Of a stretch of 32,692 nucleotides of DNA, positions 3,236-12,265 are shown one piece after another. A program made the position numbers and the translations under genes. The DNA is from a virus. Every line of letters begins with the position of its first letter. The stretch's first letter is position 1. The stretch spans positions 1-32,692 of IMG/VR virus record IMGVR_UViG_3300048589_000139; one strand, 5' to 3'. Below the pieces are notes generated by a model. It had not been told where the DNA came from. It did no database searches and saw only the letters and a program-made list of their open reading frames with translations.

Positions 3236-3589
3236 TTAAAATGGGAGCCCGTCTGCACTTGGTTGTGATGTGTTCGGGGCTTGTTCTTTTGGGGTGTTAG
3301 TTGTCCCGTCCGTTGTGATCCGCCATGCCTCAAGATTAGTAAAGTAGTTTGTTTTACCATCTTTCTCATATTTTCGGCCGCGCAGATTAAATGATACAGT
3401 AACAAACTGCATAAGTTTTAGCGGTGTTAGTAAGTCGCATTTATCCTGAGTTACCTGAAATTTAATTAGTTCCGGCCATTCTGGCTTTGTGGTGTCCTCA
3501 ATAACAAATTCACGCTTTTTGAACTTTTCCGTGATCTGTTGTTCTGCTCCGATTTCTACAATCGTTCCTTTTGCTTCGTAATTCATCAT
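3236..3589 (-). CDS. DUF3127-type single-stranded DNA-binding protein (OB fold)
   Basis: The 117-aa protein shows the DUF3127 signature: GTIVEIGAEQQITEKFKKRE at the N-terminus, DKCDLLTPLKLMQFVTVSFN in the middle, and LRGRKYEKDGKTNYFTNLEA. DUF3127 proteins are Bacteroidota OB-fold proteins related to SSB. A flexible Pro/Gln/Ser-rich tail ends in SADGLPF, which resembles the acidic, Phe-terminal tip SSB uses to recruit replication partners. It lies downstream of the helicase and the VRR-like nuclease, so it probably coats ssDNA in phage replication. The start is MMNYEAKG; the second Met could also serve. Confidence 0.85.
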   Translation of the reverse strand: MMNYEAKGTIVEIGAEQQITEKFKKREFVIEDTTKPEWPELIKFQVTQDKCDLLTPLKLMQFVTVSFNLRGRKYEKDGKTNYFTNLEAWRITTDGTTNTPKEQAPNTSQPSADGLPF

Positions 3590-4285: not shown

Positions 4286-4464
4286 ATTTTATTAAGTAGC
4301 GATTTTAAGAATTTAATTGATTCACCTGCTGCGTAAATCTCGATTTTGTAAAATTCGCGCTGAGCCCAGTTAAATTTAGAATGGTGCTTCGCCTGTTGTT
4401 CCTTCAAATCCCTCAGATGGTCTAATGATAGTTTTAGCGCTGTCATAGTACGTTGCTTCTTCAT
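4282..4464 (-). CDS. Small helical protein overlapping the 3' end of dnaB
   Basis: This 60-aa basic protein (MKKQRTMTALKLSLDHLRDL) is predicted nearly all helical. Its first about 29 codons lie inside the end of the dnaB-like gene in another frame, an 89-bp overlap. An internal Met (MTALKLS, at 4446) would reduce the overlap only slightly. The stop overlaps the next ATG as ATGA, like most junctions here, and without it 90 bp would be left empty. Function unknown; moderate confidence that it is expressed. Confidence 0.5.
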   Translation of the reverse strand: MKKQRTMTALKLSLDHLRDLKEQQAKHHSKFNWAQREFYKIEIYAAGESIKFLKSLLNKI

Positions 4465-5740
4465 CTTTAAATTTTGTTATGTTCTTAATAAAATTAACCT
4501 TTGTGAGCATTGTCCCACAGTTCCTGCCTTTAGCCATAATCAACTCCGCCATTCCTATGCAACTATTACCGTCCTCAAAAGTTTGCAACCCATATTCCTC
4601 CGGTCTGTAAACAAACAGAACCACGTCTGCTGATTCCTCAATCTGCCCGGAATCCCTAAGCCTGGAAAGTGTCGGCCTTTTATTAGCTCCCTGCTGTGGC
4701 CTATTTAATTGCGATAACACCACAACCGGCTTATTCAATTCCCTTGCAATATCTTTCAATGCGCGGCTTACCTTTCCAACCTCCTCCTCTCTGTTTCGAC
4801 CGTTGCCGGATATTAGTTGCAGGTAGTCAACAATTACAAAATCCAAACTAAACCGGATAAATGCTGATCGTATCAGCGCAATAATGTTATCTATATTACG
4901 GCTGGATGGGTCGGCAATGAATATCCCTGATTCGCTTAATATGTTTTTATAGTGTTCAAATTTAGCAAATTCATCAGGTGTAGCCCATCCCTTAATCACA
5001 TCATTGCGGCTTGTTTCTGACATTGAACAAATCAACCTCATAGCTAACTGTGATTCGGTCATTTCCATGCTTATTATTGCCGCCCGCTTCTGGTCTATAA
5101 GGTACGCATTTTCAGCGATATTAAGGGCAAGTGATGTTTTACCCTGTGATGTTTCCCCTGCTATTATGATAAGGTCGCCATTTTGCAGCCCCTTCATGTG
5201 CCGGTCTATATCTGAAAATCCAGTTTTTACACCTGTCATCCCGCCTTTTCTTATGATTTCAATATCTAAAACAACCTGTTCAACAATTTCGTTTATATTT
5301 CTATACTGGTTCCCGCTCCCCTGTGATAGCTGGAGAAAACCATCAGATATTAACCGCTGCAATTCTTCGGCTGTTTTGTCCTTATTTTGGATTACACCGG
5401 ATGCAATACTTAACAGTGTGTCATGTTTGCTTTGCTCCTCAAGTTCTGTTATTAATTGCTGGATTGGGACGTTGTAATCGCAGTTTATATTAACTTCAAT
5501 GTAATATGATGCTACATTGACGTTTGTATTGCTCAGTATCAGAGCTTCATCAGTAACCTTGTTTTTGGCTATTGAATCTTTAAATATTTTATAAAGTTCT
5601 TTAGCCTGGGTTGAAAAGAATAAGCTTTCATTAATCTGGTCTGCATATTTGAAATAAATACCGTTGTCAGATATTAACCGGCTAATCAAATGACCTTCAT
5701 ACGCCTTTATCAGAATATTTCTATTTTCCATTTTTGGCAT
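4376..5740 (-). CDS. dnaB: Replicative DNA helicase, DnaB family
   Basis: The 454-aa protein is a full-length DnaB-type hexameric helicase. An N-terminal helical domain (about 1-105) is followed by the RecA-like motor. Walker A is GETSQGKTS at 195-203, where GxxGxGKT is usual. SMEMT lies at 224-228, Walker B FVIVDYLQL at 301-309, LSQLNR at 342-347, and LRDSGQIEESAD at 361-372. It unwinds DNA ahead of the fork, loaded by an initiator or loader. Directly upstream (11- or 20-bp overlap, depending on start Met1 or Met4) is the DUF4373 gene that carries the origin-like iterons. No separate helicase loader or primase is visible, so host primase is probably used. Confidence 0.95.
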   Translation of the reverse strand: MPKMENRNILIKAYEGHLISRLISDNGIYFKYADQINESLFFSTQAKELYKIFKDSIAKNKVTDEALILSNTNVNVASYYIEVNINCDYNVPIQQLITELEEQSKHDTLLSIASGVIQNKDKTAEELQRLISDGFLQLSQGSGNQYRNINEIVEQVVLDIEIIRKGGMTGVKTGFSDIDRHMKGLQNGDLIIIAGETSQGKTSLALNIAENAYLIDQKRAAIISMEMTESQLAMRLICSMSETSRNDVIKGWATPDEFAKFEHYKNILSESGIFIADPSSRNIDNIIALIRSAFIRFSLDFVIVDYLQLISGNGRNREEEVGKVSRALKDIARELNKPVVVLSQLNRPQQGANKRPTLSRLRDSGQIEESADVVLFVYRPEEYGLQTFEDGNSCIGMAELIMAKGRNCGTMLTKVNFIKNITKFKDEEATYYDSAKTIIRPSEGFEGTTGEAPF

Positions 5741-6329
5741 AATTTAAGGCATCCTGTTTCCAGTTTGCGGTTAACTTATTTTCGTATTCATTAAAGAAAT
5801 TAATAGGGTTCGAGTTTAGCAGTTTCGCCTCATAGAAATATTTGCGCACCTCCTCAACGGTTGGGGGTACAAATGCCGCAGCATCGCAAGCGGCAATTTG
5901 TGCCTTTTCTTTTTTATTATACTTTACTTTACTTTCCTTTATAGCTAATCGATCGCTTATCGTTCGCTTATCGTTCGTTGATCGATCGCTAATCGAACGC
6001 CTTGCAAGTGATGACTGTCTGGCTTTGTCCGATTTCTCTTGTCTAAGTAAGAGCCTACGGGTAATGCTGTCGGATATTATATATCCTTTTTTTACCTTAA
6101 ATAACTTGAACTCATTTACAACTGCCTTTATTTTTTCGGCATCTGAATTCAACTTAAACGAAATTAATTCATAATCGCATTCAATTTTCCCGTTTTGGTT
6201 ATAAATCATTTCGACAATTCCCCAGTAAATACCATATGATTCTATACCCATTTTTAATATCATTTTGGATATTTTAGGGTCTTGAATTGCGTTGTAATCG
6301 TGCGAAAAATAGAACGTGTCTTTGCTCAT
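5721..6329 (-). CDS. DUF4373 (Lin1244/Lin1753-like) replication initiation protein candidate
   Basis: The 202-aa protein begins MSKDTFYFSHDYNAIQDPKI, the hallmark of the DUF4373 / Lin1244-Lin1753 N-terminal domain (about 1-95, winged-helix-like). These proteins resemble phage initiators of the DnaD/O type and usually sit just before dnaB or dnaC, as here. The middle (about 100-140) is Arg/Ser/Lys-rich and shows a degenerate 11-residue repeat (SISDR, TISDR). That repeat is forced by five 11-bp DNA iterons at 5948-6000. The C-terminus (about 150-202) is helical, like a DnaD tail. The gene is preceded by a structured leader and a leader peptide ending in ATGA with this start. Origin binding is inferred by analogy with lambda O. 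Confidence 0.82.
   Translation of the reverse strand: MSKDTFYFSHDYNAIQDPKISKMILKMGIESYGIYWGIVEMIYNQNGKIECDYELISFKLNSDAEKIKAVVNEFKLFKVKKGYIISDSITRRLLLRQEKSDKARQSSLARRSISDRSTNDKRTISDRLAIKESKVKYNKKEKAQIAACDAAAFVPPTVEEVRKYFYEAKLLNSNPINFFNEYENKLTANWKQDALNYAKNGK
5903..6000 (-). other. Candidate replication origin: five 11-bp iterons plus A+T-rich tract
   Basis: Five copies of ATCGWTCGC-like 9-mers start at 5948, 5959, 5970, 5981 and 5992, exactly 11 bp apart (one helical turn). On the plus strand they read ATCGATCGC, ATCGTTCGC, ATCGTTCGT, ATCGATCGC and ATCGAACGC. Downstream in the gene's reading direction (5903-5947) the DNA is A+T-rich and purine-rich on the minus strand, with four 5-bp repeats (ACTTT three times, then CCTTT) at 5921-5940. 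The period of 11 is not a multiple of 3, so a protein repeat does not explain it. Iterons followed by a melting tract inside an initiator gene next to dnaB is the lambda ori arrangement. Origin function is inferred. Confidence 0.68.
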
Positions 6330-12007: not shown

Positions 12008-12068
12008 CAAAGATACGACATATCGTAACACAAGTCAAGTAAATGACATTAAAATTACCTTAAAATTT
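12008..12068 (-). promoter_or_regulatory. Promoter P4 with spacer palindrome and A+T upstream element
   Basis: On the minus strand TTG (12038-12036), 20 bp and TATCTTTG (12015-12008) form a consensus promoter. TACGA-TATG-TCGTA (12027-12014) overlaps the spacer exactly as in P3. From 12044 to 12068 there is an element with TTAAAATT repeated at an 11-bp interval, nearly identical (24 of 25) to that of P2 at 6509-6533. It drives the small acidic gene, the Cys-rich gene and the recombination pair. It lies just behind the XRE gene. Confidence 0.75.
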
Positions 12069-12070
12069 CA

Positions 12071-12093
12071 TTAATAATCCGCATCAGCGCATA
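12071..12093. repeat. 23-bp direct repeat, copy 2 (matches 8211-8233)
   Basis: These are the last seven codons and stop of the XRE-type gene. They differ at one of 23 positions from 8211-8233, where no such gene is present. Confidence 0.7.
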
Positions 12094-12265
12094 TTACTCT
12101 ATCCAGATAGTTGATCGCCTCCTCATATTTGTCCGCATTCCACGGGCGTTTGCCGGTTAAGTAATCGCTGATTGTTGCCGGTCTAATATTCAGTTGCCTC
12201 GCAAGTTGTGCCTGAGTAATTCCGGCCAACTTCATTTTCCCTTTTAGTTGTTCTCTTAGATTCAT
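12071..12265 (-). CDS. XRE/Cro-type HTH transcriptional regulator (64 aa)
   Basis: The 64-aa protein is a single HTH_3 domain: GITQAQLARQLNIRPATISD (about 15-34) with the recognition helix followed by YLTGKRPWNADKYEEAINYL. It probably represses an early promoter as a dimer. A perfect 16-bp palindrome lies 12-27 bp upstream of its start, and the TACGA/TCGTA inverted repeat lies in P4 right behind it. Either could be its operator (inference). Its last 23 bases are repeated at 8211-8233. No C-terminal peptidase domain is present, so it is not a LexA-cleavable CI. Confidence 0.85.
   Translation of the reverse strand: MNLREQLKGKMKLAGITQAQLARQLNIRPATISDYLTGKRPWNADKYEEAINYLDRVICADADY

Follow-up and report, generated by a model that had tools for sequence, protein, structure and literature searches.

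Can a run of 11-bp repeats inside the putative replication initiator gene of a phage be its origin of replication, and how widely is such a plan used in the family to which the initiator belongs? Origins that lie within the gene of their own binding protein have been described in several systems. In lambda, ori-lambda lies in the middle of the initiator gene O, where iterons in the form of ~19-bp inverted repeats are followed by an A+T-rich tract, and the helicase-loading gene adjoins (PMC7466680). Similarly, SPP1 oriL, in gene 38, combines direct repeats with an A+T-rich unwinding element in the gene of the origin-binding protein (PMC6316719), while TP901-1 ORF13 and Tuc2009 Rep bind repeats in their own genes, and these repeats act as origin (PMC8965321). 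DUF4373 (Lin1244_N) proteins are common phage genes almost without a literature. The open-access papers that we searched contain only two incidental mentions of them, none with an origin. An earlier reading, made from the sequence alone, knew of no described origin of this kind for DUF4373 phages.

Here we analyze a single stretch of DNA (the window) of 32,692 bp. It is the whole of an IMG/VR virus record, a linear sequence and probably a fragment. Judging from its sequence features, we consider it very probable (roughly 0.86) that a repeat array and the adjoining purine-rich tract serve this phage as its replication origin, and that this origin is contained in the initiator gene, where the linker is encoded. 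This layout is of a known kind, with precedents in lambda, SPP1 oriL and Tuc2009. However, its wide presence in DUF4373 initiators, with a fixed spacing and a freely changing sequence, appears to be undescribed in the open-access papers searched.

The initiator gene and its neighborhood

The genes of the window, nearly all of which are on the minus strand, include those for terminase, portal, major head and tape-measure proteins, DnaB, SSB and a YqaJ-recombinase. The candidate initiator had been assigned to DUF4373 and placed beside dnaB by the sequence-only reading, and profile searches bear this out: the protein matches Lin1244_N (PF14297; E 9.2e-13; 49.2 bits, above the Pfam cut-off of 25) and PHROG 2562, 'replication initiation protein' (E 7.9e-15), and dnaB overlaps the 3' end of its gene (Table 1). 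In Pfam it has no match to HTH_36, DnaB_2 or Phg_2220_C. In the AlphaFold2 model, a confident N-domain (pLDDT about 90 over aa 20-110) that contains helix and wing elements is followed by a linker predicted to be disordered (aa 120-151) and small C-terminal helices; the array corresponds to about aa 110-128. A fold search of the PDB with this model recovered only weak winged-helix regulators, with nothing below E 0.08, and a solved structure of the family was found neither by sequence search nor, at significance, by fold in the PDB. In the direction of the gene the order is the N-domain part, the five-unit array, a box with the sequence GCTATAAAGGAAAG, the purine tract and the C-terminal part.

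Table 1. Features of the replication module and the candidate origin in the window
Feature	Coordinates	Strand	Basis or remark
Initiator gene, DUF4373/Lin1244_N protein, 202 aa, contains array	5721..6329	-	PF14297 + phrog_2562
Lin1244_N domain, N-terminal, aa 7-89, predicted helical/wing DNA-binding	6063..6311	-	Pfam coordinates, AlphaFold2
Iteron 1 (gene direction) GCGTTCGATTA	5990..6000	-	
Iteron 2 (gene direction) GCGATCGATCA	5979..5989	-	
Iteron 3 (gene direction) ACGAACGATAA	5968..5978	-	
Iteron 4 (gene direction) GCGAACGATAA	5957..5967	-	
Iteron 5 (gene direction) GCGATCGATTA	5946..5956	-	
Conserved junction box GCTATAAAGGAAAG, sixth, half-unit position	5932..5945	-	Identical in >100 viral loci
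A+T tract rich in purines, carrying 5-bp repeats (GGAAA/GTAAA); putative DNA unwinding element	5903..5940	-	
dnaB-type replicative helicase gene	4376..5740	-	DnaB_C E 3.6e-73, phrog_19 E 3e-81
Single-strand DNA binding protein, DUF3127, phrog_4932, same replication module	3236..3589	-	Profile matches

An 11-bp period beyond protein constraint

Read on the plus strand, the five units begin where they had been claimed to begin, namely ATCGATCGCTT at 5948, ATCGTTCGCTT at 5959, ATCGTTCGTTG at 5970, ATCGATCGCTA at 5981 and ATCGAACGCCT at 5992, at a spacing of exactly 11 bp, and their CGATCG, CGTTCG and CGAACG cores are as described. Tandem Repeats Finder reports a period of 11 with 5.2 copies at 5944-6000. 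The array has a lag-11 identity of 36 in 44 positions. Among 5000 synonymous recodings of the initiator protein, drawn with the phage's own codon usage, the mean was 20.3 and the maximum 31, such that none reached 36; order-1 Markov windows (n=300) did not exceed 28. Because a step of 11 bp is not divisible by 3, the reading frame shifts from each unit to the next, in keeping with the earlier remark that the spacing is not codon-phased. Together with the recoding result, this means that the period cannot come from the protein: the array, though inside the initiator gene, exceeds what protein constraint accounts for. No other site in the window comes within 6 matches of this lag-11 score, that is, there is no second comparable array, and matches to the iterons outside the array with two mismatches are near chance (36 versus 27 expected).

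GCTATAAAGGAAAGTAAAGTAAAG comes after the array in the gene direction. The A+T-rich stretch that had been noted past the array is indeed present: the 43-bp piece at 5903-5945 is 77% A+T, has 5-bp repeats, and ranks in the least stable ~1.2% of the window's 43-bp pieces. It is also 81% purines on the gene strand, and only 0.12% of the pieces of the window are as one-sided. The box occurs in the window as a single copy.

Conservation in close relatives

A protein search with the initiator recovered 47 viral relatives or loci. Most close relatives have three units with the consensus GCGAACGCAAT, ending at a box GCTATAAAGG, which the window has as well, and this box is followed by a GGAAA/GTAAA tract. 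The linker peptide differs (SISDRSTNDKRTISDRLAIKES in the window versus TDANAMRTQCDSNAIKER in the relatives), while the DNA plan is kept. In the 16 non-redundant protein-found genes with an xIKE motif, the box codons GCT/ACT, ATA, AAG and GAA are used in 16/16 each, against background frequencies of 0.31-0.35, 0.40, 0.27 and 0.81, respectively. The three box-proximal units of these 16 genes lie in three different frames and share one consensus. Hence, the check that the sequence-only reading had proposed, namely whether the 11-bp period outlasts change of the protein, has a positive outcome, with differing linker peptides and fixed box codons. This outcome supports the interpretation of the locus as a putative origin.

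Scanning DNA with the pattern GCTATAAAGGAAAGNAAAG recovered at least 119 viral stretches, nearly all of them DUF4373 genes with such arrays. Of the 27 genome matches, nine have arrays, all in Bacteroidota (Dysgonamonadaceae, Sphingobacterium, Pontibacter and uncultured members); the others are apparent chance matches in other genes. The order of array, box and purine tract is seen in more than 100 viral loci and nine Bacteroidota genome loci. Since the loci found by DNA pattern (groups B and C) were chosen by the box pattern, they were left out as independent evidence for the box.

In one lineage (L005, L258, L259) all units and the box are altered together, from TGCGAACGCAT and GCTATA to TACGAACGTAT and ACTATA, with the unit arms changing from TGCG..CGCA to TACG..CGTA. 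Such a joint change is what recognition of every copy by a single protein would predict. Pairs with N-domains at least 50% alike share units regardless of how related their C-domains are, and those with N-domains less than 35% alike rarely have units in common, even when their C-domains are related. This is consistent with a link between iteron sequence and N-domain, a relationship confounded by the adjacency of the two.

Separately, the C-terminal parts of the initiators are often unrelated (DnaB_2, DUF7833-like and others; L001-L047 and phage references) despite a similar N-domain and array, and the array thereby marks a joint of module exchange. An identification of the window iterons as Dam or PvuI sites (GATC/CGATCG) was ruled out, GATC being absent from the units of relatives.

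Comparison with known intragenic origins

The window shares with the replisome organizers of Tuc2009, TP901-1 and r1t the placement of repeats within the initiator gene, and with Tuc2009 and r1t also short units set 11 bp apart that lead into a purine tract. In Tuc2009 rep, whose record carries the note 'contains origin of replication', CAACCA recurs at relative positions 2, 13, 24 and 35 and is followed by ATAGGATAGGAGAGG; r1t ORF11 has GGAACC four times at exactly 11 bp, followed by a TAGATAAGAAT tract. The iteron sequences themselves differ from those of the window, and so do the proteins, with TP901-1 having HTH_36 and DnaB_2, r1t only Phg_2220_C and the window Lin1244_N. The same period test recovered the annotated iteron spacings of lambda O (20, 23 and 24); in TP901-1, with its known intragenic origin, period 11 was absent.

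As to its overall plan, the likeness to lambda O that had been proposed for this locus holds. As in lambda (and Stx phages), iterons and then an A+T tract lie inside an initiator gene that adjoins a helicase-related gene. Where the likeness fails is in iteron length and spacing: lambda has ~19-bp inverted iterons spaced 20, 24 and 23 bp, in contrast to the one-turn 11-bp units of the window, which makes Tuc2009 and r1t the closer match. Further, lambda relies on the loader P and host DnaB, whereas the window carries its own dnaB. SPP1 oriL, by its published description, is similar in having repeats and an A+T-rich element in the initiator gene and a DnaB-type helicase of its own. However, some 13 kb from oriL SPP1 has another origin, oriR, and the window lacks a second array.

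A putative intragenic origin and the alternatives

The array that is not driven by the protein, the conserved box, the low-stability tract, the neighboring dnaB and the Tuc2009 and r1t controls together argue for an intragenic origin. Under such a scheme, the N-terminal domain of the initiator would bind the iterons, one molecule per helical turn, on a single face of the DNA. The resulting nucleoprotein complex would melt the adjoining purine-rich tract, and the C-terminal part of the initiator might then hand the phage-encoded DnaB helicase onto the opened strand, the loading of which would start theta replication. With the site placed inside the gene of its binder, initiator and origin would travel together when replication modules recombine. 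GC skew lends the origin no support: it has no switch at the array locus in the window, and of three complete phages, two have the site at 0.17-0.2 of a half-genome from the skew minimum, whereas in the third the two are far apart.

An alternative function for the array, which we regard as improbable, is that of an operator through which the initiator or another phage regulator controls transcription of the replication genes, with the origin being elsewhere. Short tandem half-palindromes are typical of operators too, and the site precedes dnaB, which runs in the same direction. Nevertheless, the array is deep in coding sequence, away from a promoter, the low-stability purine tract next to it is kept, this same layout is on record as the origin in Tuc2009, and no comparable second array is present in the window. 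Iteron arrays also serve in partition and some pac sites are intragenic, and these parallels would favor a packaging (pac), recombination or partition site over a replication origin. We hold this to be less probable still, given that the array is tied to the initiator gene, near helicase or loader genes, across unrelated phages, and is not linked to terminase or par genes. Least credible of all is that the repeats are a by-product, devoid of DNA function, of a low-complexity charged linker: the predicted disorder of aa 120-151 and the richness of the linker in Lys, Glu, Arg and Ser would fit, but the codon test largely refutes it, as synonymous recoding destroys the period, the units occupy different frames, the box codons are invariant and 110 control ORFs are without such a period.

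The plan across the DUF4373 family

We surveyed periods in 118 non-redundant genes against the 110 control ORFs, using synonymous-codon shuffles and down-weighting A and G. With all letters, 10- and 11-bp signals were mixed owing to a 5/10-bp repeat within the purine tract itself, a problem that the down-weighting removed. In five groups (window-like, pattern-found, reference, Vibrio and gut) no period had a higher mean than 11. In the genome-sampled PF14297 group, period 11 tied with period 7 for the top mean, though the signal was weak. It did not stand out at all in the small EF62phi group, and the control ORFs had no period-11 signal. Thus, an 11-bp array with a purine tract in linker-coding DNA is present in the window and most groups, though not universally: it is lacking in L193, and the Porphyromonas phage relative has no clear array. 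Sampling of PF14297 in 200 Pseudomonadota genomes yielded zero matches.

In phages of Vibrio, Pantoea and E. coli (mEp515) and in gut phages, the DUF4373 gene has repeats of unrelated sequence in the same place, mostly 11 bp apart, for example GTCATGANNNN in mEp515 (L199) and TCGCCACCCAA, and a gene from a Bacteroidota genome has the unit GTTCAACCACA. The natural variety of units thus spans GCGAACGCAAT, TACGAACGTAT, GCGAWCGATWA, GTCATGANNNN, TCGCCACCCAA and GTTCAACCACA, each beside its cognate N-domain. The gene after the initiator is dnaB in the window, Vibrio phage 1.236.O and BS5, that of a DnaC-like loader in EF62phi (where Lin1244_N is joined to DnaB_2 in the protein) and the Porphyromonas phage, and that of replication protein P in PdC23. 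Overall, a dnaB, DnaC-like loader or lambda-P-like gene follows the initiator in 30/108 cases by single-sequence search, which has limited sensitivity.

On this sequence evidence, the intragenic 11-bp plan seems to be spread through much of the family rather than being special to the window phage. We give odds a little better than even to a single rule, whereby the origin always lies in linker-coding DNA, with helical-turn (11-bp) iterons leading into a purine tract, the spacing being fixed and the iteron sequence drifting freely with the N-domain, in phages of Bacteroidota, Bacillota and Pseudomonadota. If true, sequence alone would suffice to predict origins, and to derive a recognition code, in hundreds of uncultured phages. 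The finding gives DUF4373 proteins a concrete job, and offers a predicted origin with binding sites for many Bacteroidota phages lacking replication data. The units beside their cognate N-domains are a data set from which a recognition code could be worked out, and they offer short DNA for autonomously replicating vectors in Bacteroidota.

Several loci depart from the common form. In L076 and L128 many GCAATGCAGNNN units at a codon-phased 12-bp spacing, an exception to the 11-bp rule, precede the box GCTATAAAGG (at 4778-4796 on the minus strand in L076). Apart from the initiator array, the window has an A+T-rich 11-bp repeat, AAATTACATTA, in 3.1 copies (12041-12074), where a small gene for an HTH regulator ends (12071-12265, minus strand). 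In L082 and L186 (Lachnospiraceae MAG), a box GCTATAAAGGAAAGTAAAG occurs in a protein missed by the DUF4373 profile, with differing upstream repeats (GAATTACCAAGAAGGAAATACC); this protein is possibly a remote relative with the same plan. L056 and L116 have an HNH endonuclease domain (PF01844; E 3e-10 and 7e-12) fused into the initiator linker at residues about 148-192. This insert, seen also in the truncated L100, lies between the N-domain and a diverged array, with the box GCTATAAAGG still present after it, and possibly reflects homing into the origin. Finally, L013:6001-7026 has a linker insert (IFYVLRF...FLKCGITSESISRRYSGK) resembling a GIY-YIG nuclease, a resemblance that Pfam does not confirm, and its close relative L014 has a normal array in place of the insert.
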